IMG/VR virus record: IMGVR_UViG_3300032753_000083 | Coordinates: 1 to 38,317 of that record | Length of the DNA stretch: 38,317 bases | From: a virus | Reading direction: 5' to 3' (one strand) | Part shown: positions 18,501-34,270 of the stretch, piece after piece | Numbering within the stretch: position 1 is the stretch's first letter | How the letters are laid out: every line of letters begins with the position of its first letter | Notes under the pieces: generated by a model | Told to the model about the DNA's origin: nothing | The model's database searches: none | Seen by the model: only the letters and a program-made list of their open reading frames with translations | Program-made: the position numbers and the translations under genes

Positions 18501-21500
18501 GACGAACTTCGTGGTACTGTTGTACAACCAGCAAATGCTAACTTAAACTTAGTTAATGATAGACCAAAATCTATTAACTCATTAACACGTATTCAAAGTT
18601 TAATTCCAAACTTGTTACAAAATACAGTTATAACAGGAACAACTGGAAATACACAAGTACTAGCGACTACAGCCACAACTGGAACAGGTACAGTTGCAAC
18701 AATTAGTTTTGCAACTCAAACATCTGCACCATTTGTTGTAGGACAATACATTACAGTTAGCGGTGTAACTCCAAGTGGTTATAACGGAAGTTATGTTGTC
18801 ACAGCAGTAACAACAAATAGTGTAAGCTATGCAAACACAACAACTGCAAGCCAATCAGTTGCAGGTATTGTAAGTAGTCAAGTAACAGGATTGCCAGCAG
18901 GTGATGTTGGTAGTACAACTGCGGTAAACACAGTAAACACAAACGTACAGTTAATCAATAACATGATTTACAACGGTTTACCACAAACTCCTGCATTTAG
19001 TATTCCTGCCGTAACTAACTATAACACATATTATTTGAATGGATTTAGTTATGGTGTAACACAATTACAAAATAACTATAACTTTATCAAAGCAGAAATT
19101 GCGGCCTACTTAAACACATATTATAGTTCTGTATGGACTACATTTGGTAGCACAAACCAAACAGAAACTTTACGTGATGTTGGTTTTGTAGTAGACGGAT
19201 TACAATATGATATGGCTTATGGTTGTAACAACCAAAGTATCATCAATGGTAGTTCATACTATTCCTTGAATATTCCACAAATTTTAACAGCATATAGTCC
19301 AGCGACAGTTGGCGCATTACAAAGATTACAAGCAATCGTAAGTCAGATTGTTCAAGGTCAATCAGTTACAGCTACTTCTGGTAACAGCGTAACACAGTCA
19401 ACTGGTGGTAGTGCTGGTTCTGCGGCGGCTGGTGCATTTGCTGGAGCTCGTGTTGCTGACGTAATTTACTGGTTACAAAACGGTTATGCAAACTCAACTG
19501 TTAATAATATTACTGGTTCAATTAGCGGAACAACATTGACAGTTACAGCGGCTACATCGACTGTAGCTACTGGTGCGTTGTTAACTGGTACAGTATTAAC
19601 AACAACTGCAACAGCTACTAACAGTGGTACAGGTTTAGTATCTCTAGCTAGTACTACTGGCTTGTCAGCTGGTATGGCTATTACATTTACCGCAACATAC
19701 GGTTCTGGTAACCAATCAACATTTGGTGGGTTGTCACAAACAACTTATACAATTAACACAGTTTCAGCAGGTTCAGGTGTTACATTATACAACTATGGCA
19801 CATCAACACCTGCAACATTAACAACTGGTACAGGCTTAATGACTGCAACAGCAGGCGTTGCACCAGGTACTTATATTGTTAACCAAATTACAAGTATAGC
19901 AAGTGCCCAAGCCGCAACTACATTAGCAAGCGGTGGTTCAAGTGGTACTAACACATTTGTAGTATCAAGTGCAACTGGTATTGCGGCAGGTCAACTTGTA
20001 ACAGGTACTGGTATTCCAGCTGGTTCATATGTTATTTCAACATATACTTCTGGAACAACTGTTACTCTTGTTACAGCGGCAGGTGCTCCAAGCAACTTTA
20101 CAACTAACGGTTCCGGTGCATACTTATTCTACCCAGCAGGTTCAACAGGTACTTACACAGTTAACGTAAGTCAAACTATTACTGGTATTGCATTATCAAC
20201 TAACGCAACATTTACTCCAATCACATCTGGTGCATTTAGTTTCGCAAGTTCAACAGCATTGCAAACAGCTTACAATGCTTTAGTTGCACGTCAAAGCGAA
20301 ATTGCATCAGACGCTCAAGCATGGGTGGCAAAATACAATCAAGCATACAATATTAGTGCAACATTAAGTAACCGCGATGCTGGTTATATTTCAACTGCAT
20401 TAGCGTATGACATTTTGTTTGGATCAAACTTTAACAGTATTGCTTGTGGTCGTGCATTTAACCGTTTGAATACAAGTGCTCAAGCGTTGTTAGCAAACAC
20501 AAATAATGAATTGTATGCAACAACTGGTGCAATTACATTTATTGGATTCAAAGCGAAAGAAATCGCGGCAAGCGGTGCAACAGTTCAAGCAAGTACATTG
20601 ATTGATGATATTGTAACTAAGATTAACGGACAAGTTACAACTACATTGTCTACCGCTACAACAAGTACAAACGTATTAACAGTAGCAAGTACAACCGGTA
20701 TGGCAGTAAACATGCCAATCACATTCACCGGATTGCCAAGCCCAATCACAACAACTGCTACAATTACAGCTACTTCAACTAACTTAATTACTGTTGCCAA
20801 CTCAACAGGATTTGCTGTTGGACAACAAATTTACTTTACTAGTACAGTATTTGGTAACATTGTTCCAAGTCAATTGTATTACATTGCAAGTTTAAGTGGT
20901 AGCACTATCACCGTAAGTTTAACTTACGGTGGCGCCGCAGTTGCATTGGTTAACGGTACTGGTTCTATGAACGTTACAGTTAATAATGCTGGCGGTTTAT
21001 GGAACAATAACACCTATTGGATCAACAGCATTCCAAGCGGAACAACTATTACTATTACAAACAGTTTCAAGAGCGGAACTCCATACACAATTACTAACAC
21101 AGTAACAAGTATGACAGCCGCAGTTACAGCAGGTGCAACAGTCACATGGCCATATTCAAATAACCCAATGATTAACGGATCATTAACATATAATGATACA
21201 TTAACGACCATTCAGGGTGCTGAAATTTTACGTGCAAATATCTCATTCCTTGCATACGAAGCCGCGGCTTATACTCTTGCAAGTTATGGTGGTACAGTAA
21301 CAGCTACTACATCAAGCACAAACGTATTCACAACAAGCAGTAATCACAACTTTGTGGTTGGAGACCCAGTTGTGTTTAGCGGAACTGTAGCTGGCGGTGT
21401 TGTTGCAGGAACTACATATTATGTGTTGACAGTTCCAAACTCAACTACATTCTCAGTAAGTTCTACTCAAGCAGGTACAGGAACCCAAGCCGCATTGTCA

Positions 21501-24500
21501 TTGACTACAACATCTAGCGATAGTTTCACAGTAAGCTATTACTACAATACTGCTAAGTGTGTACGTGATACTACAAACTTTATTAACGCATTGATATATG
21601 ACTTAAATTACACAGGTAACTATAAGTCAATGAGAGCGGCTGAGCTTTATGTTAATGCTATTACAGGTTCGTTGACACAAAACTTCTACCTAGTAAGAAA
21701 TGCTTGCGGTATACGTAACCAAACAATGAACGGTTTGACAGGCACACTAAGTTCTGCAAACGCTTATGGTACAAAACGTCCAACAGCAGGTGCTTATACA
21801 AGTTTAGATCCAGGATTTGGTCCAAACGATAGTAACTCATGGGTATTCTCACGTAGTACATTCGTACAAAACTGTACAATGTTTGGATATGCATGTTCTG
21901 GTGCAAAAGTTGACGGAGCATTACACGCTGGCGGTTACAAGTCGATGGTTGCTAACGACTATACTTGTGTAATTGGTGATGGTATTGGTTGGTGGACAAC
22001 AGGTACCGGTTCATTATCAGAACTTGTTTCAGTGTTTAACTACTACTCATACGCAGGTTACTTGAGTGAGCTAGGCGGACGCATTCGTGCTACTAACGGT
22101 AACAGCTCATATGGTACATACGGTGTTATTGCTGAAGGCGTTGATACATACGAAACTCCAATTTACGGTACAGTAAACAACAGAAGTTTTGGTCCACAAA
22201 TTACCAACGTACTTACAGATAGTACAACACAAATTTTACGTCTAGAGTATGAAAATGCCGGACAAAACTATACAAACGCCGTACCAGTAGTAAGCGGATC
22301 TGGTTACAACATTATTTCATATCAAGATGAATATCGCGATGCCGCAGTATTTGAAACACGTTTAATCGACCTTAACAATGGTCAAGGTGTTGGCGGTTCA
22401 GCTTATGTTAGCGCAGTAAACGTTGGTCAAACTAATACATTAGGTGTTGGTTACCATCAAATTGCGGCGGCTGATACAGCATTGACTAGTGCATACAACG
22501 GTATGAGAATCTTAATTACTGCTGGTACAGGTGTTGGACAATATGCAAATATTTTAACATACACTAACGGTAGTAAAATTGCACAGATTGTTCGTCCAAC
22601 ATTTGTAACATTAACAGTTACAGGTTCAACAACTACAGTATTGCAAGTTGCAAGTACAAGTACATTATATGTAAATCAACCAATATACCTAAGTGCAACA
22701 ACAGCTGGTGTGTTTAGTGCGTACACAGTTTACTATGTACAGTCTATTCCTAACTTAACAACATTCACATTAAGCGCAACATCAAACGGTGCGGCAATTA
22801 CTGGTTTAACATCAACAAGCGCACAAACTATTAGTTTATATGCCGCTGGTTGGGACCATGTTGTTCCAGGAACACCAATCAATAATACAACTGACTTAAC
22901 AAGTGCTTATATTATTGAACCGGCAGTTTCATATACAAGCCCAGGTTATACTGCTACTGCAAGAACATTAAGTTCAAGTGTAAACTGGAGTTCTGTGGCA
23001 TCCGGTGCAGGGTACTACATGGCTGTTGCTACAGCTAGTACTGCAACAGCATACAGCACAACTGGTAAAACATGGACAGCAGGTGGAGCATTGCCAAGTT
23101 CGACAACATGGAATAACGTTGTATTTGGCGGCGGATCTGGCGCTCAAGCAACTGTTACATTAGGCGGTTTTGGTGGATCTGGTGCAGTATTAACAGCAAC
23201 TTTAGGATCTGGATTAACAGCAGGTCAGGTTGTTAGTGTAACTGTTGTTAACGGTGGATATAACTACACAACAGCACCAACAGTTCAATTTGTTGGTTCT
23301 GGTACAGGAGCGGCCGCAACAGCAGTTGTTCTTAACGGTGTAATTCAATCGGTCACTGTTACAGTTAACGGTTCTGGTTATGCTTCAGCTCCAACAGTTA
23401 ACGTAGTAACAAGTGCAGTAACAGCAGTAACTCCAATTACATGGGGACGTGGTTATCAAACAACTCCAACAGTTGTTATTGCTCCTCCATTCAGCGGTAC
23501 AGTTTGGAGTAACGGTGGAAGTGTAACAAGTGGACAATATTACTATTACTACTATGCTACAACACAAGCAACTAACTACTACCTTGCAACATCAAGCGGA
23601 ACATTTAGTTCAACACCTCCATCATTCACATCTGGTACAGGTGCATCAGGAACTTATGGTGTAAACTTAACTTATGTCGGTACACAAGCAACTGTAACAC
23701 CGACATTGACTAATACAGGTGTAAGTAGCTATGCTATTAACCAAATTGGTTATGGTTATACAAGCACACCAACTATTACAATTACAGACTTAGCGGCAAA
23801 ATTTGTTGCAATTTCTGGAACTACTGCAACTGCATATCTTGCTCCGAGTAGCATTGGATCTGCATGGACAGCAGGCAACGGTTTACCAACAGCAGGCTTT
23901 ACAGGCCTAGCATATGGTAACGGTGTATATGTTGCTGTTGGTATCTATTCAGGAACTAGTGCTATTGCATCGAGTACTGATGGTATTACTTGGGTTAACA
24001 GAACTGCTCCAGGCGTTGCTACTCAAGTATACAGTTCTGTAGCATTTGGACAAATGGGCCCAGGATCAAGCGCAACAACAACAGGTATGTTTGTTGCAGT
24101 TACATCTGGTTCTAACGTAACAGCCTATAGTACAAACGGCGTTTCATGGGTAGCTGGCGGTAACTTACCAAGTGTTGCTAGCTGGTCAAGTGTAACATAC
24201 GGTAACGGACGTTTTGTTGCAGTAGCATCTGGTAGCAACTTAACTGCTTACAGTAACAACGGTGGTGTTACATGGTATGCAAGTACAGCTAACGGCGGAT
24301 CAAACTTACCATTATCACAAAACTGGAGTGGTGTAAAATACGCAGAAGGATTGTTTGTAGCAACAGCTACTAGCCCAACTCCAACAGTTACTACAACTAC
24401 TCCTGTTTCAAACGTGATTACTTTGTCAAGTACAGCTGGTATTAACATTGGTAACACTTTTGTACCAACAGCAGTAACACAAAGTACAACAGCAACAGCA

Positions 24501-27500
24501 AGTTCTAACTCTACTGCAAGTAATAATAACGCAATTATTATTCCAACAACTACAACAGCTGGTACAGTTTTAAGTCCAATGGGAACAACAACTGGTACAT
24601 GGCTTGCAGGTATGGCATTAACTAGTACTGGTACTGTAACATCTGGTACCTGGGTAACTGCTCTTAATGCTGGTACAGTAACAACAACCGGTATTGCAAG
24701 TACTGTTGCAAGTACAACAGGTACAATTGGTGCATCAATTACAGGTTCAGGTACATTTGCCAGTCCATGGGTTGCAACAATTAGCGGTTTAAGTAGTGTT
24801 GCAACATTCGTAGTTGGCGCACAAATTACTGCAACATCAGGAACAGGTACATTATATGGTAGTACACCAACTAGTGTAACAGTAACAAGTATTGTTAACT
24901 CAACAACTATTACATATTCTGTAGTTGGCGGTACAACACCAACAGCAGGTACAGTAACCAACATCAGTCAAACTGTATTGACAGCAAGCGCATCGAGCAA
25001 CTTGTTACCAGGTATGGCTTTAACTGGCGGTGCTGTAACAGCAAGTTATGTAGCTGGACAGATTAGTTCAACAGGTACAGCATTAGCAACAGCATTGTTC
25101 ACTGGAACAACTGGAACTAACACAATCGTTCTAAGTTCGTTCACAGTTGGTACTATTGCTTCTGTGGCAGTTGGACAATTTGTTGCTCCAATAGCAGGTA
25201 TTCCAGCTAACACATTTGTTACAGCGGTTAACACAACTACAAGCACAATCACTATTAGTGCTAACTTGTATAGTTCAATTTCTGGATCAACTAGCACTTA
25301 TGCGGCTGGTACTGGTGCTGGAACTTATGCGTTAACTCCGTTAACAACTGGTACAATTACTGGAACACCAACTACAGGTACAAGTTATTCAGTAAGTATT
25401 ACTCAAACACAGGCCGCGGCTACTGTAACCGGTACGCAAAACTCAATTACAGTTGGTAGTACAGCTGGTATGGTTGCAGGCGAATCAATTGTATTCACTG
25501 GAACAAGTTTTGGTAACATTGTAGCAAGCACAACATACTACATTACTGAAGTTATTAGCTCAACATTGTTATCAGTTAGTTCAACTTACGGTGGTACAAA
25601 CTTTGTAGTAACTGCTGGTTCAGGTACAATGACTGCAACTGCTGGTTCTGTACTAGGCGGTTTAACTTCAGGTACAACATATTATGTTGTAAGTGTAAGT
25701 GGTAACCAAATTACAGTAAGTTTAAGTAACACATTAACTCCAGTATACTCTGTATCAAGTGGTAACGGTTCATGGAATAGCTTAACTGGTAACAACTTTG
25801 CGGCAACAAGTTGGGATGGTTTAAACTGGACTCAACAGTTATTGCCAACAAACGCAAGTTGGAGTGCTCCAGCATTTGGTAATATTCAAGCAAGTAACGT
25901 TGGATATAATCCATTATGGGTAACACTAGCACAGGCTGTACCTGGTACAATTATTTCTGTAGCAAGTTCATCTGGTACAACATTAACTTTAGGCTCTGCG
26001 GCTACACTAGTTGCAGGCCAAGCAATTACATTTGGTACAAGTTTTGGTAACATTGTTGCTGGAACAATTTACTATGTACAAGCATCCATTACTTCAAGTA
26101 CAAGTTTAACAATTAGTGCAACATACCTAGGAGGTGCGTTCACAGTTGGAACAGCATCTATTGCAAGTATTGGTACTGTTCTATCTACAACTACTGCGGC
26201 AAGTATGCATACTGGCGCAACACCATTAGGTCGTGCAAAAGTAGCAAGTGGTGCAATTACTGAAATTCGTATGATTGAACCAGGTAGCGGTTTCCCTAAA
26301 GGTAACGTTACTGCAACTACATCAGGAACTAACATTATTACTGTAGATAATACAGAAAACTTAATTGCTTTACAACCAGTAGAGTTTAATACAGTTAGTG
26401 CTGGAGGTTTATCAGTTCAAACAACTTACTATGTAATTGGTTCAAGCATTACTTCTAACTCGTTCCAAGTTGCGGCATCGGCGGCTCTAGCGACAATTGG
26501 TACAGCAGTAACTTTAACAACAAGTAGTCCAACTGGAATGATTTATACGGCTAGTCCGATTGTAACTATTACTGATCCAAACCACGTTAATACTGCGGCT
26601 ACTCGTGTACGTACAGGCGACGGTGTACTAGGTAACCCAAGTTTCCCTAACCGTGGTGCTGGTAACGCGACTGCAACTGCAAGTTCAGGTGGTGATGGTT
26701 ATGCAGATATCTATCAAAACACAGCATACATTAACATCGCTGGATTATATGCAATTCCACAAGCTGGTGCAAACGTACAGTTCTCAAATATTCCAAATGC
26801 TTGGTACAAACTAGTTATTGTAACCAACCAGTTGGGACAAGCAGGAAACTACACAGCACAGTTCCAAGTTAGCCCAAGTTTAACAACTTACCTTGCTCCA
26901 AACCATGGTGTACTAGTTACAACAAGATTGAAGTACAGTCAGGTTCGTTTAACTGGACATGACTTCTTGTATGTAGGTTCGGGTAACCAAACACAAACAA
27001 ACTATCCAAACGTTACAACTGCTAACGCAATACAAGCCAACCAAACATTCCCAAATATTGGTGGTCGTGTGTTCTTTACAGCTACTGACCAAGACGGTAA
27101 CTTTAACGTTGGTAACTTGTTCGGTGTACAACAAGCGACTGGTACTGCTACATTGAATGCTAACGCATTTAACTTAGCTGGTTTGCAGAGCTTGACACTT
27201 GGTTCTGTTAACTTAGGAGTTGGTTCAGCAACTATTACACAATTTAGTACTGATCCTTACTTTACTGCTAACAGTGACAACATTCTACCAACACAAAAGG
27301 CTATTAAGAGCTTTATTACAGCCCAAATTGGTGGCGGATCAAGTAGTTTGAACGTAAATACACTAACATCTGGTCAAATCTATGTTGCAAATAACAGCAT
27401 TTCTAACATTAACGGAACCCAGATTTATGTCAGCAGTAAAATGCTGTTCACAGGCGGAATTGATGGGGCACCTGTTGCTCTTGTATTCTTTGCATCAAGA

Positions 27501-27503
27501 TAA
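15540..27503 (+). CDS. Giant modular fibre/adhesin, paralogue 2 (3987 aa)
   Basis: One uninterrupted frame of 12 kb, with AGAGGAA upstream. The scaffold parallels the preceding gene: seven chitin-binding-type repeats (residues about 10-650), a pectin-lyase-like beta-helix (IFVKTGTYNEVLPIVVPA, IIGDELRG, later GIRNQTMNGLTG and GGRIRATNGNSSYGTYGVIA), Asp-box-like repeats near residues 2480-2930, and the same C-terminal TATDQDGNFNVGNLFGVQQ and ILPTQKAI. It is longer mainly because about 1000 residues are inserted in the beta-helix after DELRGTVVQP (about 18530-21685), with more further on. Family B cassettes lie near 16720-16935, 17775-18010, 19600-19850, 20640-20970 (two), 21296-21530, 22610-22840, 25430-25700, 25965-26175 and 26310-26540. 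Another widespread module (GGYNYTTAPTVQF type) lies near 23190-23410. Likely a very long fibre or sheet-like adhesin. Confidence 0.75.
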   Translation: MAEFKLGRIKFVYQGTWTIGTSYVVDDVVTVGGKTYICTQSNTASALFATDLNSGYWSIVADGSRWTGNWANSTYYLVGDQVLYGGIIYQCTTAHTSASSTATLTATAATANGTTATITFNALSSNIQPFLVGASITVSGFTAQSAFNGTYTVTACTPTTVSYALSQTLTGTVMGTVSGTGTLGLEVNQTSWTAFANNLNWTNTWSTNTRYKVRDLVSYGGYTYLCNTAHVSANTTASGLEANQSSWDVFNAGIAYQGAWSGSSVHYRLNDIVKYGASLWICTTPHTSTSTFATANFSVFVNGLEYVTGSWSGSTTYVTGDIVNYGGNLYTAIAVNTNQIPSTQSASWQIFNQGFSFVGDWSNALSYKVGQVVRQGGYTYLCTADNTVLTITATATTSGTNSVTVSSTTGLAAGVPIIFTGTSFGNITSGTQFYILSVIDSTHITLSATSGGAVLNVTSATGSLTGVTQVQPPFTGYWTRLNSGIRWNPGTATYTNIAGTNITGSGTGATFDITASKTYYTVTVHSGSAGSGYASTNTIKILGSQVGGISPANDITITVTGVSTGAISTITSTGYSVTWVSGATYVLGDTVYFGANTYICVSAHTSLTGNRPDNDATGAYWNVLASGAESAVLTTQGDMFYYGSTGPTRLPIGTDGQVLRVNGNVPAWQYYGQINNIVYVGPAGVDTVAASQGTSIDKPWATIRYACYQVENGYLNTNSTALLQLNKQFLLKEINNYVYYQYSFNVTGTSSTTLTVGGSSSVAQTTTTNMYVGMPIVFTTSSGSIVAGTVYYVQAIGSSTTFSISATFGGSVFTVGTGTANVGTYSYNQAKTERDTGIIVDGLISDIGRGGTLKTTQAVQAYFATSSSFATNVNSYDIVPFVSALNYLGTLAGNVLANTAPGTNYQTVLGVPSGSRAQQQINTTYTAETTIPARILQLLAIITGPLQLGNTNSLLPAVTPNTTIFVKTGTYNEVLPIVVPAYTAIIGDELRGTVVQPANANLNLVNDRPKSINSLTRIQSLIPNLLQNTVITGTTGNTQVLATTATTGTGTVATISFATQTSAPFVVGQYITVSGVTPSGYNGSYVVTAVTTNSVSYANTTTASQSVAGIVSSQVTGLPAGDVGSTTAVNTVNTNVQLINNMIYNGLPQTPAFSIPAVTNYNTYYLNGFSYGVTQLQNNYNFIKAEIAAYLNTYYSSVWTTFGSTNQTETLRDVGFVVDGLQYDMAYGCNNQSIINGSSYYSLNIPQILTAYSPATVGALQRLQAIVSQIVQGQSVTATSGNSVTQSTGGSAGSAAAGAFAGARVADVIYWLQNGYANSTVNNITGSISGTTLTVTAATSTVATGALLTGTVLTTTATATNSGTGLVSLASTTGLSAGMAITFTATYGSGNQSTFGGLSQTTYTINTVSAGSGVTLYNYGTSTPATLTTGTGLMTATAGVAPGTYIVNQITSIASAQAATTLASGGSSGTNTFVVSSATGIAAGQLVTGTGIPAGSYVISTYTSGTTVTLVTAAGAPSNFTTNGSGAYLFYPAGSTGTYTVNVSQTITGIALSTNATFTPITSGAFSFASSTALQTAYNALVARQSEIASDAQAWVAKYNQAYNISATLSNRDAGYISTALAYDILFGSNFNSIACGRAFNRLNTSAQALLANTNNELYATTGAITFIGFKAKEIAASGATVQASTLIDDIVTKINGQVTTTLSTATTSTNVLTVASTTGMAVNMPITFTGLPSPITTTATITATSTNLITVANSTGFAVGQQIYFTSTVFGNIVPSQLYYIASLSGSTITVSLTYGGAAVALVNGTGSMNVTVNNAGGLWNNNTYWINSIPSGTTITITNSFKSGTPYTITNTVTSMTAAVTAGATVTWPYSNNPMINGSLTYNDTLTTIQGAEILRANISFLAYEAAAYTLASYGGTVTATTSSTNVFTTSSNHNFVVGDPVVFSGTVAGGVVAGTTYYVLTVPNSTTFSVSSTQAGTGTQAALSLTTTSSDSFTVSYYYNTAKCVRDTTNFINALIYDLNYTGNYKSMRAAELYVNAITGSLTQNFYLVRNACGIRNQTMNGLTGTLSSANAYGTKRPTAGAYTSLDPGFGPNDSNSWVFSRSTFVQNCTMFGYACSGAKVDGALHAGGYKSMVANDYTCVIGDGIGWWTTGTGSLSELVSVFNYYSYAGYLSELGGRIRATNGNSSYGTYGVIAEGVDTYETPIYGTVNNRSFGPQITNVLTDSTTQILRLEYENAGQNYTNAVPVVSGSGYNIISYQDEYRDAAVFETRLIDLNNGQGVGGSAYVSAVNVGQTNTLGVGYHQIAAADTALTSAYNGMRILITAGTGVGQYANILTYTNGSKIAQIVRPTFVTLTVTGSTTTVLQVASTSTLYVNQPIYLSATTAGVFSAYTVYYVQSIPNLTTFTLSATSNGAAITGLTSTSAQTISLYAAGWDHVVPGTPINNTTDLTSAYIIEPAVSYTSPGYTATARTLSSSVNWSSVASGAGYYMAVATASTATAYSTTGKTWTAGGALPSSTTWNNVVFGGGSGAQATVTLGGFGGSGAVLTATLGSGLTAGQVVSVTVVNGGYNYTTAPTVQFVGSGTGAAATAVVLNGVIQSVTVTVNGSGYASAPTVNVVTSAVTAVTPITWGRGYQTTPTVVIAPPFSGTVWSNGGSVTSGQYYYYYYATTQATNYYLATSSGTFSSTPPSFTSGTGASGTYGVNLTYVGTQATVTPTLTNTGVSSYAINQIGYGYTSTPTITITDLAAKFVAISGTTATAYLAPSSIGSAWTAGNGLPTAGFTGLAYGNGVYVAVGIYSGTSAIASSTDGITWVNRTAPGVATQVYSSVAFGQMGPGSSATTTGMFVAVTSGSNVTAYSTNGVSWVAGGNLPSVASWSSVTYGNGRFVAVASGSNLTAYSNNGGVTWYASTANGGSNLPLSQNWSGVKYAEGLFVATATSPTPTVTTTTPVSNVITLSSTAGINIGNTFVPTAVTQSTTATASSNSTASNNNAIIIPTTTTAGTVLSPMGTTTGTWLAGMALTSTGTVTSGTWVTALNAGTVTTTGIASTVASTTGTIGASITGSGTFASPWVATISGLSSVATFVVGAQITATSGTGTLYGSTPTSVTVTSIVNSTTITYSVVGGTTPTAGTVTNISQTVLTASASSNLLPGMALTGGAVTASYVAGQISSTGTALATALFTGTTGTNTIVLSSFTVGTIASVAVGQFVAPIAGIPANTFVTAVNTTTSTITISANLYSSISGSTSTYAAGTGAGTYALTPLTTGTITGTPTTGTSYSVSITQTQAAATVTGTQNSITVGSTAGMVAGESIVFTGTSFGNIVASTTYYITEVISSTLLSVSSTYGGTNFVVTAGSGTMTATAGSVLGGLTSGTTYYVVSVSGNQITVSLSNTLTPVYSVSSGNGSWNSLTGNNFAATSWDGLNWTQQLLPTNASWSAPAFGNIQASNVGYNPLWVTLAQAVPGTIISVASSSGTTLTLGSAATLVAGQAITFGTSFGNIVAGTIYYVQASITSSTSLTISATYLGGAFTVGTASIASIGTVLSTTTAASMHTGATPLGRAKVASGAITEIRMIEPGSGFPKGNVTATTSGTNIITVDNTENLIALQPVEFNTVSAGGLSVQTTYYVIGSSITSNSFQVAASAALATIGTAVTLTTSSPTGMIYTASPIVTITDPNHVNTAATRVRTGDGVLGNPSFPNRGAGNATATASSGGDGYADIYQNTAYINIAGLYAIPQAGANVQFSNIPNAWYKLVIVTNQLGQAGNYTAQFQVSPSLTTYLAPNHGVLVTTRLKYSQVRLTGHDFLYVGSGNQTQTNYPNVTTANAIQANQTFPNIGGRVFFTATDQDGNFNVGNLFGVQQATGTATLNANAFNLAGLQSLTLGSVNLGVGSATITQFSTDPYFTANSDNILPTQKAIKSFITAQIGGGSSSLNVNTLTSGQIYVANNSISNINGTQIYVSSKMLFTGGIDGAPVALVFFASR
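15843..16080 (+). repeat. Family A Ig-like cassette, copy 5
   Basis: Contains a VSGFTAQSAFNGTYTVT stretch. It splits the second chitin-binding-like repeat between HTSAS and LGLEVNQTSW. An undisrupted sister repeat in the same protein reads HVSANTTASGLEANQSSW. Confidence 0.7.
17001..17273 (+). repeat. Family C cassette inserted at a precise site
   Basis: About 91 codons with GSGTGATFDIT, GSAGSGYASTNTIKILGS and GGISPANDITITVTGV. It falls between GIRW and the WVSGATYVLGDTVYFG strand of the seventh chitin-binding-like repeat. The paralogous protein reads straight through as GVLWTNRWATGNSYAVGDLV. Confidence 0.7.
18661..18882 (+). repeat. Family A Ig-like cassette, copy 6
   Basis: Contains GVTPSGYNGSYVVTAVTT followed by a SVSYA strand. 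It is part of the large expansion inside the beta-helix region of the 3987-residue protein. Confidence 0.65.
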
Positions 27504-27888: not shown

Positions 27889-29832
27889 ATGGCACGTTAT
27901 AATACCACACTAGCGACAGAAATAGTCTCTGGAGCACAAACACTCTTGTCACCAGCACAAGGTGGATACACAGAATTTCAAGGTACTGCACCTTATACTG
28001 TAACAATTCCAGGACCATCGTTGTTCCTAGGTCAGACACAAAGTTATTTTAATAACACATCTGGCATAGTTACACTTCAAACGCCAGCTGGTGTCATTAA
28101 CGGTCCTGGTTCAACAAGTTCTAACACAATAGCTTTGCCAGCAGGTAGCAGTATTATTATTGCATCTGATGGCACAAACTACAGCGTTATTACTTTTCCA
28201 GGCGGCCCACAATATGGAGTTACTGGAACATTTTCAAGCGATTTAATTAGTACCAACACAGGTACTGTTAACGTTTTTAATACTAACGCAACAGCAATCA
28301 ACGCATTTGGTAATGCAAGTACAATTAACATTGGTTCAAGTACTGGTACAACAACAATTAATAACTCACTATTAGTTAAGGGCGGTATTACTACAGTTAA
28401 CTCAAGTTCAGTATTAGTTGAAGACAAGAACATTGAAATTGGTTATGTTAACCCAGTTAGTTATGGTGGCGGTACTATTGGTACTATTACTGGTTCATTG
28501 GGCTCGAGTACAACATTTACAAGTATTACTGGTACTAAAGTAACAGCCGCAAGTACATATAGTGGTGTTAGTCAATTCGCAACAAGTGGTGTTGGTACCG
28601 GTGCAACATTTAACATAACAACTACTGGTGCAGGTACAACATATACTGGCGTAACTACAATTACATTAGTTAACCCGGGTTCAGGATATGCAATTAACGA
28701 TACAATTACTATTGGTGGTAGTTCTTTAGGCGGTACAACTAGCCCAAACAACTTAACATTTACAGTTAGTAACGTAATTTACTCACCATGGACTGCAACT
28801 GTTACTCTTATGACCAACACAACCAACTTGGTCGCTGGTCAATCAGTTAGTGCAACTAACGGTACAGGTAGCTTAGGAGGCGGCGGTACAAGTTATATTA
28901 TTTCTAACGTTCCAAGTTCAACAAGTATACAAGTAACTGCAACAGGTGGTACAACTCCAACAGCAGGTACTATTACAGCAATTATTCCAGGTAGTGCTGA
29001 TACATTTGCCAACGGCGGCGGCATTAAATTATACGGATCAACTAATCACTTATTAACATGGAACAGCGCCGCAAACGGACCAGCTAACGGTAACCAAAAC
29101 CCAGCATGGGTAAGTACTGAAGGTTTAATGATTAGTACTTCTAACGGTTTTGGTATTCAAAATACCGGTAACGTTAACTTTAACATTTTAACCAACGGAC
29201 AGGCAACAGGTACTGTATCTATTGCAACTAACGCGGGTACAGGTAACTTGTTTACTAACGCAAGTTCGGGCGTTTCAATTGGTGCTAGCGGTGGTACTGC
29301 TACAATTAGTAACACTAACCTTACAGTTGGACAGTCTGGTGGTACAGTTACTTTCAACGGTATTACAACTTTCACAATGAACAGCGTAACATCGTTTAAC
29401 TTAACTGGCGGTGGTACAATGAACGCTGGTAGTACATATGGTTATTTTAGTTCTCTAGGCGTTGGTACTAACACTAACGGTGGCGGCGGTACAATTTATG
29501 CTTCAAACAACATTGTTGCTTACTATTCTGATGATAGATTAAAGACACGTTTGGGCAAAATTGAAGATGCTCTTGCTAAATTAGAAACATTAAATGGTTT
29601 CTACTTCGAAGCTAACCAAACTGCTCAAGATTTGGGCTATACCGTTCAACGTGAAGTTGGAGTTTCGGCTCAAGAAGTCAACGCAATCCTGCCAGAAATT
29701 ATTAAACCAGCTCCGATTGACGCTAAGTACATGACAGTTCAATACGAAAAGTTATTACCTTTAGTAATTGAAGCAGTTAAGGAATTGTCAGCCCAAGTTA
29801 AAGAATTGAAAAAACAAATTAACAAAGAGTAA
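27889..29832 (+). CDS. Tail fibre with C-terminal S74 intramolecular chaperone (647 aa)
   Basis: The N-terminus (FQGTAPYTVTIPGP, then QSYFNNTSGIVTLQTP and SIIIASDGTNYSVIT) is a common phage fibre attachment module. The middle is a beta shaft interrupted by a family C cassette (about 28555-28775) and more Gly/Thr modules. The last 101 residues are a peptidase S74 (endosialidase-type) chaperone domain: YYSDDRLKTRLGKIEDALAK, GFYFEAN, a GVSAQEV motif, LPEII and MTVQYEKLLPLVIEAVKEL, ending in a short coiled coil. In this family the domain drives trimerisation and then cleaves itself off using a Ser-Lys dyad; here Ser547 and Lys552 fit, with cleavage expected just before Ser547. Only 3 bp separate it from the Asn/Cys-rich gene. 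Confidence 0.9.
   Translation: MARYNTTLATEIVSGAQTLLSPAQGGYTEFQGTAPYTVTIPGPSLFLGQTQSYFNNTSGIVTLQTPAGVINGPGSTSSNTIALPAGSSIIIASDGTNYSVITFPGGPQYGVTGTFSSDLISTNTGTVNVFNTNATAINAFGNASTINIGSSTGTTTINNSLLVKGGITTVNSSSVLVEDKNIEIGYVNPVSYGGGTIGTITGSLGSSTTFTSITGTKVTAASTYSGVSQFATSGVGTGATFNITTTGAGTTYTGVTTITLVNPGSGYAINDTITIGGSSLGGTTSPNNLTFTVSNVIYSPWTATVTLMTNTTNLVAGQSVSATNGTGSLGGGGTSYIISNVPSSTSIQVTATGGTTPTAGTITAIIPGSADTFANGGGIKLYGSTNHLLTWNSAANGPANGNQNPAWVSTEGLMISTSNGFGIQNTGNVNFNILTNGQATGTVSIATNAGTGNLFTNASSGVSIGASGGTATISNTNLTVGQSGGTVTFNGITTFTMNSVTSFNLTGGGTMNAGSTYGYFSSLGVGTNTNGGGGTIYASNNIVAYYSDDRLKTRLGKIEDALAKLETLNGFYFEANQTAQDLGYTVQREVGVSAQEVNAILPEIIKPAPIDAKYMTVQYEKLLPLVIEAVKELSAQVKELKKQINKE
28555..28775 (+). repeat. 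Family C cassette, copy 3
   Basis: Contains GVGTGATFNITTTGAG, NPGSGYAINDTITIGGSSLG and SPNNLTFTV. It is inserted in the shaft of the S74 fibre between its IEIGYVNP strand and the FANGGGIKLYGSTN strand. Confidence 0.65.
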
Positions 29833-29835
29833 AAA

Positions 29836-30225
29836 ATGACAACACCTTCCGGAACAATATACATCAGCCAAGTTGACGGCGAAATTGGACTACCAAATAG
29901 TAGTCCATATTCTAACCTAAGTTTCTTGAACGGCTATGTTATTCCTGGTCAGCGCGATTCATATCCTGATATGAACGAAATGCGTAACAGAGCATACTAC
30001 CAGTCAAATAACAAAGGCAACTGTAACAACGGTAACTGCGGAAATTGTAATTGTAATTGCGGTAATATCTGTTGCTATAACTGTTATATTAATGGTCACA
30101 TTAATTGTACAAACTGCGACGGACAAAACTGGTTACAAAACAACTGTAATTGTAACTGTACCTATAATTGCAATTATGCTTCAGGATCATATAACTGTAA
30201 TTGTAATTGTAACTGTAATTGTTAA
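29836..30225 (+). CDS. Asn/Cys-repeat protein, putative virion-borne substrate of the radical SAM enzyme (129 aa)
   Basis: Residues 1-56 (PSGTIYISQVDGEIGLPNSS, then LSFLNGYVIPG) resemble the short N-terminal domain of many phage appendage proteins (SG.I..S.I..E.G..S....SL). Residues 57-129 are dominated by Asn and Cys: 19 Cys at 63, 68, 71, 73, 75, 79, 80, 83, 91, 94, 104, 106, 108, 112, 121, 123, 125, 127 and 129, ending in five Asn-Cys pairs. A single Trp (W99) lies in this tail. The gene begins 3 bp after the S74 fibre gene and is followed 16 bp later by a radical SAM/SPASM enzyme, the usual order of precursor and maturase in RiPP clusters. I infer that the tail is cross-linked or otherwise modified. 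Metal binding or disulphide packing are alternatives. I do not recognise a named family. Confidence 0.7.
   Translation: MTTPSGTIYISQVDGEIGLPNSSPYSNLSFLNGYVIPGQRDSYPDMNEMRNRAYYQSNNKGNCNNGNCGNCNCNCGNICCYNCYINGHINCTNCDGQNWLQNNCNCNCTYNCNYASGSYNCNCNCNCNC
30193..30222 (+). repeat. (AAYTGT)5 hexanucleotide repeat encoding (Asn-Cys)5
   Basis: Five in-frame AAY-TGT units end the Asn/Cys-rich gene just before its TAA. Shorter in-frame runs of the same unit lie at 30043-30060 and 30142-30159. Gain or loss of whole units by slippage would change the number of Asn-Cys pairs without breaking the frame. Confidence 0.85.
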
Positions 30226-30241
30226 CAAGACAAGGAACAAC

Positions 30242-31720
30242 ATGATTTTTGAAATTCTGGCAGAAAGATATGGTACTGGCGTTACCGATCAAAAGACATT
30301 TTTTTACGATAACGAAAAAAATATCTTAAGTGATGAAACTGGTTATATCTGGGAATATCCTAACACCTACGCTAATTCAACATTTATACAAGATGTTCCA
30401 TATAAGCCATTTGATAAAAATAATCCTTTGAAAAAATCAAAGGATGTACGTACAGTAAAAATTCAAATGGGGTTATCTTGTAATTACAGTTGTGATTATT
30501 GCAGTCAGAAATTTGTCGAACGTCCACGTGAAACTAACGCTAAAGATATTGAAAACTTTATGGAGTTATTCAATAACTTAAATTTTAGCGAAGATCGTGG
30601 ATTACGTGTTGAGTTCTGGGGCGGCGAGCCATTTGTTTATTGGAAAACAATGAAACCATTGGCCGAAGCTATTGCAGAAAGATTTAAAGACTGGAAAAAT
30701 AAACCATCATTTAGCGTTATTACTAATGGTAGTTTGTTAACAGAAGAAAATTGTGCATGGTTATATAGCATGGGATTCCACGTTGCTGTCAGTCACGACG
30801 GTCCTGGACAATTCACTCGCGGACCAGACCCGTTTGAAGATCCTAAAAAACGTGAAGTTGTATTAGATTTATATCAAATTTTACGTCCTTTAAACCGTAT
30901 GAGCTTTAACTCTATGTTAAGTTATAAAAATCAAAGTCGTAAAGCAATTTATGATTGGTTTGTCGACTTTACAAATGATCCAAGTGTATTGTTAGGCGAA
31001 GGAACATTTGTAGATGCATACGATGAAGACGGTTTAGAAAATTCACTTAAAACAAAAGCAGATCATTTTGCCTTTAGACAACGTTCTTTTGGGGAAATAT
31101 TTGGAACTAATGGAGAAATTGGTTTTACAGGTATACTTGGTAAGATTGATAATTTTACAGAAGACTTGTTAACACATCGAGAAGCAGATTATCTCGGTCA
31201 AAAATGCGGCATGGACAGTGAAGAAACTGTTGCATTTGACCTACGTGGAAATGTAATTACATGTCAAAACGTAAGTGCATTAGAAACAGGTAAAAATGGT
31301 GAACCACATTTAAGCGGTAACATTGCAAATATCGAAGATGTTTCAATTTCAACAAGTACACACTGGTCAAACCGTAAAGAATGTCCAGAGTGCCCCGTAT
31401 TACATATTTGTAAAGGTGCATGTATGTTCTTAGATGGCGTTTACTGGAAAGCTAGTTGTAACAATGCCTACTCAGATAACGTGCCATTGTTCGCCGCAAG
31501 TATTGAAAAAATTACAGGCTACATTCCTGTATTAATTAAGAGCGATACATTACCTTTAGATCGTCAAGATATCTGGGGTAATATATACAAACACGAAGAA
31601 GAACAACCAAAGAAAATTATACCAATTAAGGTAGTCAGTGAAAAAGTTGCGGTAATCGATAACATCGAAGTTTACGGCAAAAGTTCCCTGATAAATACTA
31701 CAGAAGAATCAGGAGCATGA
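30242..31720 (+). CDS. Radical SAM/SPASM peptide-maturase-like enzyme (492 aa)
   Basis: The canonical CNYSCDYC motif (Cys80, Cys84, Cys87) binds the catalytic [4Fe-4S] cluster and S-adenosylmethionine; the SAM-binding WGGEP follows at residues 126-130. The C-terminal half has the full SPASM cysteine pattern for auxiliary clusters: Cys322, then G336-X4-Cys341, then Cys381-X2-Cys384-X5-Cys390-X3-Cys394 and Cys406. Enzymes of this class modify ribosomal peptides (thioether or C-C cross-links, epimerisation) or activate sulphatases. The start is ATG 30242, preceded by AAGGAAC; an earlier in-frame ATG at 30092 lies inside the Asn/Cys gene and is rejected. Residues 1-70 might bind a leader, but I see no clear PqqD-like fold. 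The position beside a Cys-rich small protein argues for a peptide substrate. Confidence 0.88.
   Translation: MIFEILAERYGTGVTDQKTFFYDNEKNILSDETGYIWEYPNTYANSTFIQDVPYKPFDKNNPLKKSKDVRTVKIQMGLSCNYSCDYCSQKFVERPRETNAKDIENFMELFNNLNFSEDRGLRVEFWGGEPFVYWKTMKPLAEAIAERFKDWKNKPSFSVITNGSLLTEENCAWLYSMGFHVAVSHDGPGQFTRGPDPFEDPKKREVVLDLYQILRPLNRMSFNSMLSYKNQSRKAIYDWFVDFTNDPSVLLGEGTFVDAYDEDGLENSLKTKADHFAFRQRSFGEIFGTNGEIGFTGILGKIDNFTEDLLTHREADYLGQKCGMDSEETVAFDLRGNVITCQNVSALETGKNGEPHLSGNIANIEDVSISTSTHWSNRKECPECPVLHICKGACMFLDGVYWKASCNNAYSDNVPLFAASIEKITGYIPVLIKSDTLPLDRQDIWGNIYKHEEEQPKKIIPIKVVSEKVAVIDNIEVYGKSSLINTTEESGA
31690..31698 (+). promoter_or_regulatory. T4-type late promoter (GATAAATAC) inside the radical SAM gene end
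   Basis: Seven of eight bases match TATAAATA. Predicted transcription start is near 31703, giving a short leader with AGGAG at 31711-31715 before the ATG at 31722. The spacing to ribosome-binding site and start resembles that at 15506. It would give the 306-residue protein and the halogenase-like gene extra late expression. Confidence 0.5.
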
Positions 31721-31721
31721 A

Positions 31722-32642
31722 ATGAATTTATACTTGGCAAACGGAACTAACAGATTATATGCATTATCAATTCAACTTGACGAGTCAAGTTTGACTTATA
31801 AGACATATGATGTGTATGAAACAATTAAATTAAAGCAATTCTGGGAAACACAAACAGGTAACGTATTACCTGGATCTTTATTTGATAAAGCACCTACACC
31901 TGCTATAACACCTGCATGGGTTACTGAAACATATTCAGTTTACGAAAGCCAATCACCTGAATCGCAAACTATTAATTTTTCGGACATTCAAGGTTTATCT
32001 GATTTTTCAGATCACGGTATTTTCATGTTGTATTCACCAGATTCTCCGTCTTATGTTTCTCCGATTAGACCAACGGCTCCTTCTTCGGTGCCAGCAGGAA
32101 AAACATCGATTAGAGTTCCACTTCATAACGGATACGCACTGACTACTGGTTCAAAAATGAGTCCATTTGTTCATAGTGCATTTAATAACAATATTGCTAT
32201 GATTGCAATATGTGTGCCATTTGCAAGTGCTCCAGTTGATCAATGGTCAATTGTGTTTAACGTGAAAGATTCTAGTTTGTTTAAGTTAACATCTGGACAA
32301 GCAACAACACCAATGCAAGGAAATAGCGTTGGTAAATTTACAAAAAGTTTATTACCTAAAGTATGGTTTACTAATAAAACTATGACTGTAACTGCTGATG
32401 GATTTGTTGATGTTCCTTTTTACTTAGGAGATTCAACAGGAAATCCTATCACACAATCAGATGCAACTGTATATTTGAAAACCACAGCAGGACAGTTAAA
32501 CAAACAACAAGTTACCACAATTAATGGTCAAGGTACTGTTCGTTTAATTGCAAGTCATTTAGTTTCTGGAGAAACTGCAACTATTAGTTGCGGATTTAAA
32601 TTATTCTCGGGAACAGACGATTGCGTTGTCACTGTAAATTAA
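31722..32642 (+). CDS. Unrecognised protein with Ig-like C-terminal domain (306 aa)
   Basis: I do not recognise the family. Residues 1-55 are mixed alpha/beta (MNLYLANGTNRLYALSIQLD), and residues 70-210 are aromatic- and Ser/Pro-rich with strand-like stretches. Residues about 214-306 read as a bacterial Ig-like domain (VWFTNKTMTVTADGFVDVPF, ITQSDATVYLKTTAGQL, GQGTVRLIASHL, ending in a CVVTVN strand). There is no catalytic motif, signal peptide or membrane segment. Composition is closer to the virion proteins than to the enzymes around it. It begins 1 bp after the radical SAM stop with AGGAG upstream and is followed 7 bp later by the halogenase-like gene. It could be a second virion substrate, a scaffold presenting the substrate, or an unrelated appendage protein. 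Confidence 0.6.
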   Translation: MNLYLANGTNRLYALSIQLDESSLTYKTYDVYETIKLKQFWETQTGNVLPGSLFDKAPTPAITPAWVTETYSVYESQSPESQTINFSDIQGLSDFSDHGIFMLYSPDSPSYVSPIRPTAPSSVPAGKTSIRVPLHNGYALTTGSKMSPFVHSAFNNNIAMIAICVPFASAPVDQWSIVFNVKDSSLFKLTSGQATTPMQGNSVGKFTKSLLPKVWFTNKTMTVTADGFVDVPFYLGDSTGNPITQSDATVYLKTTAGQLNKQQVTTINGQGTVRLIASHLVSGETATISCGFKLFSGTDDCVVTVN

Positions 32643-32649
32643 GGAAAAT

Positions 32650-33861
32650 ATGAAAATAGGAATTGTAGGTTCTGGAACCGCCAGCGCAGTTTCACTATTA
32701 AAAATATTTGAACAACTCGAAAAACATCAATGTAAGCATGTTGATGTTTTTTGCATTTATGATCCTAACATTCCTATCACTACGGTAGGGGAAAGCACTA
32801 GTTCGTTATTGCCAATCTTGTTATACAACGTAGCAAATTTTTCAATAACCGAAGAAATGCAACATTTTGATGGTACATTAAGATGGGGTACTCGATACTA
32901 TTGGAAAGATGCTAACGATACAGAGTTTTTTGTTAAAAACGGTATACCAGGTTTGCACGTTAATAGTGAAAAATTTAGTAGATTTGTAATTAATAGGCTA
33001 GATGAAATTTACGAAAACTTTAGCCAGATACATGGCAACGTATCTAGTATGACACAAGATGCATATAAAGTTACGGCAGTCATCGATGATGTTGAACATA
33101 AATTTGATTTTTTAATCGATTGCAGAGGAAATCCAACAGAAGAAGAATTGAATAGTGGCGCATACAGCTTTCCTCAATTTGAAACAGTTAATTCTGTTAT
33201 ATTATATCCAGATTTTAAAGAATATAATGAAGATATTACATCAGCGTATGTACATGAAGATGGGTGGATGTTCGGAGTTCCACTAACACATCGAAAAGCG
33301 TTTGGATATTTGTACAATAAAAACTTTACAAGTCACGAAGAAGCAAGTGAAAAATTTGCAAAATTAAAAGGTATCGATACAATTAATCTAAGAAGATTCA
33401 GTTGGAGACAGTATTATAAAAATACTGCTATGGACGGAAGAATTATGTCTATGGGAAATCGATTACAATTCTTTGAACCTGCACAAGCATTGCCGTTACA
33501 TTATTACATTAATTTAACAATGGAATTCATTAGTCGAATTATTAATAATAATTTAGACGTACATAAGATGAATATACAATTAAATTTTGACCATAGAAAA
33601 AATATAGAAGGAATGCAAAATTTAATTGCATTAAATTATTGCGGGTCTTGTAATATTAAAAGTCCGTTCTGGGAATATGCTACAATTAACTCAAGAAAAC
33701 GTCTAAAAAATTCTCAACAGTTTCAACAATATTTAAGAGACTGTGAAAAATCTGAAAAAATTGAAATATACTGGTGGCATAACGCCCAGTTAATGAAAGA
33801 ATACATTGACGGATTTGGAATTAAATTAGATCAACTAAGTCAAAAACAGTCTGCAACTTAG
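32650..33861 (+). CDS. Flavin-dependent tryptophan-halogenase-like protein (403 aa)
   Basis: The N-terminal GIVGSGTASA (residues 4-13) is the FAD-binding loop, followed by TTVGESTSSLL (residues 44-54), as in tryptophan halogenases. Residues 205-211 (GWMFGVP) occupy the place of the family's GWxWxIP motif, with Phe for the second Trp, followed by GYLYNKNFTSHEEA (usual GYVYS..F.S..EA). NRLQFFEPAQALPLHYY (residues 270-286) matches the F.EPLESTS region. Where halogenases have the catalytic Lys in FK.., this protein has TLRWGTRYYW with Arg78, so chlorinating activity is uncertain. Halogenase-like genes are known in cyanophage-type myoviruses. The AAGGAAA start signal lies 7 bp after the previous gene. 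Its last 41 bp overlap the Nudix gene on the other strand. Possible roles are peptide Trp halogenation or another flavin oxidation. Confidence 0.75.
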   Translation: MKIGIVGSGTASAVSLLKIFEQLEKHQCKHVDVFCIYDPNIPITTVGESTSSLLPILLYNVANFSITEEMQHFDGTLRWGTRYYWKDANDTEFFVKNGIPGLHVNSEKFSRFVINRLDEIYENFSQIHGNVSSMTQDAYKVTAVIDDVEHKFDFLIDCRGNPTEEELNSGAYSFPQFETVNSVILYPDFKEYNEDITSAYVHEDGWMFGVPLTHRKAFGYLYNKNFTSHEEASEKFAKLKGIDTINLRRFSWRQYYKNTAMDGRIMSMGNRLQFFEPAQALPLHYYINLTMEFISRIINNNLDVHKMNIQLNFDHRKNIEGMQNLIALNYCGSCNIKSPFWEYATINSRKRLKNSQQFQQYLRDCEKSEKIEIYWWHNAQLMKEYIDGFGIKLDQLSQKQSAT

Positions 33862-34270
33862 TTCTTATTGTTTTGCTACTAAAACTGTTACGTAACCCTT
33901 GGTGCAAAGGTTTAGGAGCACGATCGATAGTAGTCCATGCCCATCCAATATGTTCGTCACTTAGTGTTGGAATAAATTCAGATTCTATCACACACAAGTA
34001 TGTGTGGAAATTAAAAACTTTGTCGTTACTAACAAATGTTTCTAGAGGTATAGTTTTAATTATATTAGGTACAGCGCCTATTTCTTCTTTAATTTCACGT
34101 TGTAAACCTTGCCAAGGTGTTTCTCCAGTGATATTAGTACCACCTACTAGCCCCCAAGTGCCTTCGTGTTTACCGTGACTTTTTTGAAGAAGTAAAAATC
34201 GTTGTGTAGACTTTGCATAAAACAATGCACCACTACAAACAATTTGTTCTTTTACAATACTATTTTCCAT
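33821..34270 (-). CDS. Nudix hydrolase (149 aa)
   Basis: A complete Nudix box, GGTNITGETPWQGLQREIKE followed by EIGA (GX5EX7REUXEEXG), follows an MutT-like beta strand (RFLLLQKSHGKHEGTWGLVG). The Glu residues of REIKEE would bind Mg2+ for hydrolysis of a nucleoside diphosphate linked to another group. Small Nudix enzymes of T4-type phages act on damaged or host nucleotides, or on ADP-ribose/NAD-type substrates; the substrate here cannot be told. The ATG is 19 bp inside the end of the gp15-like gene, so the two are co-transcribed and coupled. At the other end the gene runs 41 bp into the convergent halogenase-like gene, leaving no room for a terminator between them. Confidence 0.88.
   Translation of the reverse strand: MENSIVKEQIVCSGALFYAKSTQRFLLLQKSHGKHEGTWGLVGGTNITGETPWQGLQREIKEEIGAVPNIIKTIPLETFVSNDKVFNFHTYLCVIESEFIPTLSDEHIGWAWTTIDRAPKPLHQGLRNSFSSKTIRTKLQTVFDLVDLI

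Follow-up and report, generated by a model that had tools for sequence, protein, structure and literature searches.

A probable radical SAM maturation module for Asn-Cys tails at the tips of phage tail fibres

Several radical S-adenosylmethionine (SAM) enzymes with a SPASM domain, including PapB, CteB, QhpD and SCIFF maturases, act on Cys-rich peptides and form thioethers. PapB provides a precedent for closely spaced residues, cross-linking Cys and Asp that stand 0 to 6 residues apart (PMC9413430). Cluster 59 of a published sequence similarity network (SSN) contains predicted precursors that carry as many as six X-Cys dipeptide repeats and adjoin a SPASM enzyme, with no product known (Kostenko et al. 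2022, PMC9062424). In this study, a radical SAM/SPASM enzyme and the Asn/Cys-rich protein encoded beside it were analysed in a viral stretch of 38,317 bases, hereafter the window (IMG/VR record IMGVR_UViG_3300032753_000083, positions 1 to 38,317). The window derives from a T4-like myovirus, and giant fibre proteins, a sheath-stabiliser homologue and a head-tail adaptor flank the cassette region. We propose that the gene pair belongs to a phage-encoded module that matures the tip of the tail fibre, and we place the probability of this reading as a whole at about 0.72. The core features are as follows.

29836..30225, plus strand: putative substrate, a 129-residue Asn/Cys protein (open reading frame; homologues adjoin the enzyme across loci)
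30193..30222, plus strand: (Asn-Cys)5 tract at the C-terminus, residues 120-129, where modification is presumed to occur (158/173 homologous tracts are likewise C-terminal)
30242..31720, plus strand: radical SAM/SPASM enzyme, 492 residues, PHROG 1802 (PF04055, 2.1e-9; phrog_1802, 5.4e-60; AlphaFold 2 (AF2) model)
30479..30502, plus strand: CNYSCDYC, the radical SAM [4Fe-4S] motif (C80, C84, C87), invariant in the family
31205..31459, plus strand: SPASM seven-Cys region (C322, C341, C381, C384, C390 and C394 invariant; C406 in at least 90%), aligned to the SPASM domains of CteB and anSMEcpe

The linkage of tract and enzyme was assessed in both directions on viral contigs, which are partly fragments, and the totals are lower bounds. 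The tract-first scan was blind and used a DNA pattern for four Asn-Cys codon pairs only, and its counts are among the matches listed. It yielded 105 stretches encoding a NCNCNCNC tract in frame, and an enzyme of one family lay on the same strand near 77 of these 105 open reading frames (ORFs). Of the 66 tract ORFs followed by 3.5 kb or more of sequence, 60 had the enzyme nearby on the same strand, and five of the six without it were implausible ORFs. The enzyme-first scan recovered at least 80 loci, almost all with a Cys-rich protein of X-Cys repeats within a few kilobases. Enzymes flanked on each side by 4 kb or more were dereplicated at 70% identity, and the tract was present in 44 of the resulting 49 lineages, or in 31 of 36 once loci found through the tract were left out. 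Of 163 loci, 95 had an ORF of four or more X-Cys units near the enzyme on the same strand and 2 had one on the opposite strand; the tract therefore stands beside the enzyme far beyond chance.

An earlier note on this DNA, made from the letters alone, had described a precursor-like protein and an adjoining SPASM enzyme, both encoded late among the fibre genes, and had named co-occurrence in related phages as a test. The two-way linkage upholds this description, and many related phages carry both the Asn/Cys protein and the enzyme. Among 50,697 isolate phage records, the enzyme family occurred only in Achromobacter phages JWF and 2-1 (three records), with an X-Cys tract two genes upstream of the enzyme in both. 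Likely prophage copies were located on bacterial contigs of Polynucleobacter, Limnohabitans, Burkholderia paludis, Paraburkholderia, Bradyrhizobium, roseobacters and Magnetospirillum. Three loci (L274, L283 and L245) each encode a tandem pair of radical SAM genes of this family.

The window protein contains 31 Asn and 19 Cys in 129 residues, and searches of Pfam, PHROG and NCBIfam with it gave no matches. Its Asn-Cys run mixes synonymous codons (AAC 17 and AAT 14; TGC 5 and TGT 14) and is therefore maintained at the protein level, which rules out an origin as a DNA repeat (microsatellite). Tract placement is consistent: in 158 of 173 tract proteins the tract lies at the C-terminus, ending no more than 10 residues away, and the X residue is Asn in 69%, Ala in 13% and Asp in 10%. 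Of nine internal tracts, eight are followed immediately by CFPAGT, with which a Hint domain starts, and this arrangement suggests self-cleavage that would leave the tract as the C-terminus. The bodies bearing the tract fall into at least eight unrelated protein families, mostly tail fibres by PHROG; nine of the ten long tract proteins tested matched PHROG tail-fibre families, and the tenth (L143) had no match. Fibres of Pseudomonas phages Dolphis and Itty13 that share a domain with tract fibres contain 0 and 2 Cys, and the enzyme family was not found in either phage. For the window's 129-residue protein, a tip role is suggested by its position after an S74 fibre and by its homology to tract proteins.

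Three kinds of tract carrier were observed in addition. Hint-fused tract fibres occur in Achromobacter phage JWF (L082:5799-7250) and at L208, L240, L271, L273, L275 and L276. Asn/Cys proteins of loci L015-L052 (e.g. L018:9487-10395) continue into a conserved domain of about 170 residues that starts with SKIICTKLF, has a possible C-terminal membrane segment and gave no match in a Pfam search. A separate family of about 67 residues (HTHIFYDDYSTACNCNCNCNC) bears the same tract at L131:6394-6597, L139, L155, L090 and L096. The N-terminus of the window protein, which had been called appendage-like, did not hold up as such: the isolate-phage search gave no match to a known appendage domain, the likeness to Dolphis gp34 was not significant by hidden Markov model (HMM), and a weak match of the N-terminal domain to Acinetobacter phage Minot was discarded as antisense.

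The second gene was correctly recognised as a radical SAM/SPASM enzyme. The CxxxCxxC cysteines are invariant among 18 diverse members, and the SPASM pattern for two auxiliary clusters is complete (C322-x13-G-x4-C341; C381-x2-C384-x5-C390-x3-C394-x11-C406). The start at 30242 was fixed by alignment of relatives; the longest ORF would open at 30092. The AF2 model (mean pLDDT 82.9) has anSMEcpe, CteB, ChlB and TigE as nearest folds, anSMEcpe being the best match in the Protein Data Bank (PDB; TMt 0.62-0.66), and by sequence its closest PDB entries are TigE and anSMEcpe. The NCBIfam families most similar to it are peptide maturases (geopeptide, PapB, QHNDH and SCIFF), several of which form thioethers.

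On this basis, the following mechanism is proposed. The small Asn/Cys protein, or elsewhere the tail fibre itself, would offer its terminal (Asn/Asp/Ala-Cys)n tail to the neighbouring enzyme inside the infected cell, and we hold it likely that the enzyme modifies this tail. The favoured reaction is that hydrogen would be abstracted from the residues that separate the cysteines and Cys sulphur linked to carbon, producing thioether cross-links within one chain or among the chains of the fibre trimer; we put forward this chemistry tentatively, as a little short of an even bet. The Ig-fold protein encoded downstream could serve as an assembly partner or form part of the tip, presenting or capping the tail, a 2-oxoglutarate (2OG)-Fe(II) oxygenase may tailor the tail further in many phages, and self-cleavage of Hint-fused versions would leave the tail as a free C-terminus. 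The modified protein would then be carried in virions, probably as a rigid, oxidation-resistant or receptor-contacting tip, hardened or functionalised, and the chances that this tip meets the host surface appear evenly balanced. Extended to proteobacterial phages as a broad set, the proposal is that an Asn-Cys fibre tail is covalently remodelled by a radical enzyme into a cross-linked, synthetic-like tip that meets the host surface, which would be the first virion modification by a radical enzyme; we think this rather probable.

Several observations weigh against this proposal. None of the NCBIfam curated cut-offs was reached (geopeptide 73 bits vs 400; PapB 71 vs 340), and the chemistry is therefore not readable from family membership. 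The modelled N-terminus of the enzyme shows strands but not the three helices of a full RiPP recognition element (RRE; RiPP, ribosomally synthesised and post-translationally modified peptide); no RRE match was obtained among the annotated neighbours either. PapB left the reversed order, Asp then Cys, unprocessed (PMC9413430). With TigE as the closest solved sequence and TvgB as a modifier of repeats, carbon-carbon chemistry may also be considered. No tract is visible near the enzyme in a few distant lineages (Variovorax, Sulfuricella and others), and the tract of the window itself sits on a separate 129-residue protein whose tail role is assigned by position only.

Among the alternatives, the best surviving one, which we nevertheless consider unlikely, is that the enzyme modifies the tail by another reaction, namely epimerisation, carbon-carbon bond formation or conversion of Cys to formylglycine. 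The top fold and nearest sequences (anSMEcpe and TigE) are compatible with it, TvgB forms carbon-carbon bonds on repeats (PMC9062424), and the strict X-C-X-C alternation would suit epimerisation of alternate residues, giving D/L helices like those of polytheonamide. The strict conservation of Cys points instead to sulphur chemistry. Formylglycine formation is disfavoured by the residue after the second AuxI Cys, which is Gln342, nearly invariant in the family, at the alignment position of anSMEcpe Asp277, the catalytic residue of that sulphatase maturase. No sulphatase was seen nearby. The earlier note would have given way had the enzyme clustered with sulphatase activators that have a different substrate nearby; the nearest solved fold is indeed a sulphatase maturase, but, within the comparisons made, Gln342 and the lack of a visible sulphatase nearby speak against that function. 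The JWF enzyme (KP202971.1 PJWF_00030) is annotated as an anaerobic sulphatase-maturating enzyme, which is probably a misannotation.

Distinctly less likely is that the tract forms a metal-binding or disulphide-bonded tip without covalent modification, with the enzyme targeting the Ig protein or another protein and being merely linked. Phage fibre and spike tips such as T4 gp37 and P2 gpV bind Fe via His, Cys-rich tails could likewise bind metal, and His clusters occur just before the tail in some fibres (DPHHHH..NCNCNC). Against this, the enzyme tracks the tract across unrelated bodies and also at loci that yielded no Ig protein, and related fibres in phages without a detected enzyme lack the tract.

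The remaining features of the cassette bear on its extent and on the next alternative.

27889..29832, plus strand: tail fibre with a C-terminal S74 chaperone domain, directly upstream, given as context (PF13884, Peptidase_S74, 2.5e-8; PHROG tail fibre and baseplate families)
31722..32642, plus strand: Ig-fold partner protein with a C-terminal Ig-like domain and a novel N-terminal part (hhalign 98.4% across lineages; AF2)
32650..33861, plus strand: flavoprotein with a tryptophan-halogenase fold and an altered active site, an optional neighbour (PF04820, 6.5e-29; RebH alignment; relatives)

ORFs and Pfam matches bear out the gene order that had been claimed, on one strand after the S74 fibre with gaps of 1-16 bp; the spacers from S74 fibre to Asn/Cys protein, radical SAM enzyme, Ig protein and flavoprotein are 3, 16, 1 and 7 bp. 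The cassette was only partly right as a unit: its first three genes form a real and widespread module, and the halogenase-like gene is not core. The unit is an X-Cys-tailed fibre with the Ig protein and the radical SAM enzyme, often joined by a 2OG-Fe(II) oxygenase, a wider module than the four-gene cassette of the window.

The AF2 model of the third gene product (pLDDT 88.6) supports its description as an Ig-domain protein, the C-terminal domain resembling the Ig folds of intimin D0-D1 and GH2. This partner was found in 33 of 49 lineages and is homologous across them, with no matches in isolate phages. The 2OG-Fe(II) oxygenase (PF13759/PF13640) lies between the tract gene and the enzyme in 65 of 173 loci. 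It was rejected as a strict partner, being present in 16 of 49 lineages only; such enzymes also accompany halogenase genes in phages that lack the module. Halogenase and 2OG genes did not exclude each other significantly (p = 0.12, 90% dereplication). Some loci also encode an Asp/Asn beta-hydroxylase family protein.

A further alternative, somewhat weaker again, is that the flavoprotein halogenates the Asn/Cys protein, for instance at the Trp of its WLQ motif. The tight operon position in the window clade favours this, as does contig L205, in which a canonical halogenase (L205:2196-3431, with WVWKIP, Lys and Glu, unlike the degenerate copy of the window) adjoins the same radical SAM family. 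In the window protein, however, R78, Q279 and A280 stand for the catalytic Lys79, Glu357 and Ser358 of RebH, a substitution shared across the clade. The GxGxxG motif is present as GSGTAS, and WMFGVP stands in place of WxWxIP. Lys79 is irreplaceable in Thal (PMC7948982). Within the module, the halogenase-fold gene is confined to the window clade and the distinct L205 copy; homologues at 46-49% identity from a halogenase-first scan (L292-L294) lack enzyme and tract, neither of the two cyanophage homologues inspected is close to fibre genes, and WLQ also occurs in loci without the flavoprotein gene. The halogenase was accordingly rejected as a core member, and the idea of a dedicated peptide halogenase found no support: gene 4 appears from its residues to be an optional flavoprotein with a halogenase fold and without a halogenase active site.

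A separate secreted, bacteriocin-like RiPP placed in the tail operon by chance is very improbable, since the points for it, a precursor adjoining a SPASM maturase and a published list of putative RiPPs in which peptides with Asp-Cys repeats are paired with a radical SAM enzyme (Kostenko 2022, PMC9062424), are opposed by the fusion of most tracts to tail fibres of 300-600 residues, by a gene order that follows tail genes, and by the annotated neighbour families, among which no leader peptidase or transporter was seen. A modified virion component, which had been preferred to a secreted peptide, is the better reading.

Other neighbouring genes were recorded. A NUDIX hydrolase gene (window 33821-34270, minus strand) overlaps the end of the flavoprotein gene and keeps this place in clade L002-L012. 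Two giant tail-fibre proteins, at 7172-15505 (2777 residues) and 15540-27503 (3987 residues), both match phrog_9851. A gene for a DctP-family solute-binding protein (PF03480) lies just 3' of the module in one phage lineage (L071:9684-10631 and relatives).

If tail-fibre-tip maturation is correct, it would represent a new virion chemistry, in which an adhesin tip owes its form not to sequence alone but to radical post-translational modification, in phages of Polynucleobacter, Limnohabitans, Burkholderia, roseobacters, Magnetospirillum and others. The orphan radical SAM family PHROG 1802 would be explained, and a new family of peptide-cross-linking enzymes would be defined whose repeat substrate is very simple. 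Fibres produced recombinantly would not carry the modification, which would alter the expression and study of these receptor-binding proteins. The existing isolates, Achromobacter phages JWF and 2-1, make the module open to testing.

As the earlier note had supposed, no described phage system of this kind came to light: a literature search, mostly outside subscription journals, found no paper on phage tail fibres with radical SAM enzymes, and the nearest entry is the Kostenko list (PMC9062424). By description, cluster 59 (PMC9062424) appears set apart, with a peptide, a recombinase, Asp-Cys repeats and no phage tie, whereas the present tracts are mostly Asn-Cys and lie at fibre C-termini. The module has a dedicated precursor adjoining a maturase, as RiPP clusters do; it departs from them in leader processing and export, for which no genes were seen in the annotated cassette and neighbour families, and its enzyme falls in no curated maturase family.

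The window enzyme shares the radical SAM and SPASM domains and detectable sequence and fold similarity with the ranthipeptide and sactipeptide maturases (PapB, CteB, QhpD and SCIFF). Unlike those, it scores below all cut-offs, has no full RRE helices, faces cysteines spaced by one residue and has a putative fibre or tip substrate. The anaerobic sulphatase-maturating enzymes (anSME) offer the closest solved fold and the same SPASM layout, but the window enzyme has Gln at the catalytic Asp position and no sulphatase or CxPxR-type substrate was seen. Gene 4 has phage relatives and the fold of the viral flavin halogenase VirX1 and the cyanophage halogenases, yet has lost the active-site Lys, Glu and Ser. 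Dolphis gp34, a distal tip protein like T-even gp38, likewise follows directly after an S74 fibre and has a similar PSGTI.ISQ start, a likeness seen by eye; it is Gly-rich, whereas the window protein is rich in Asn and Cys.

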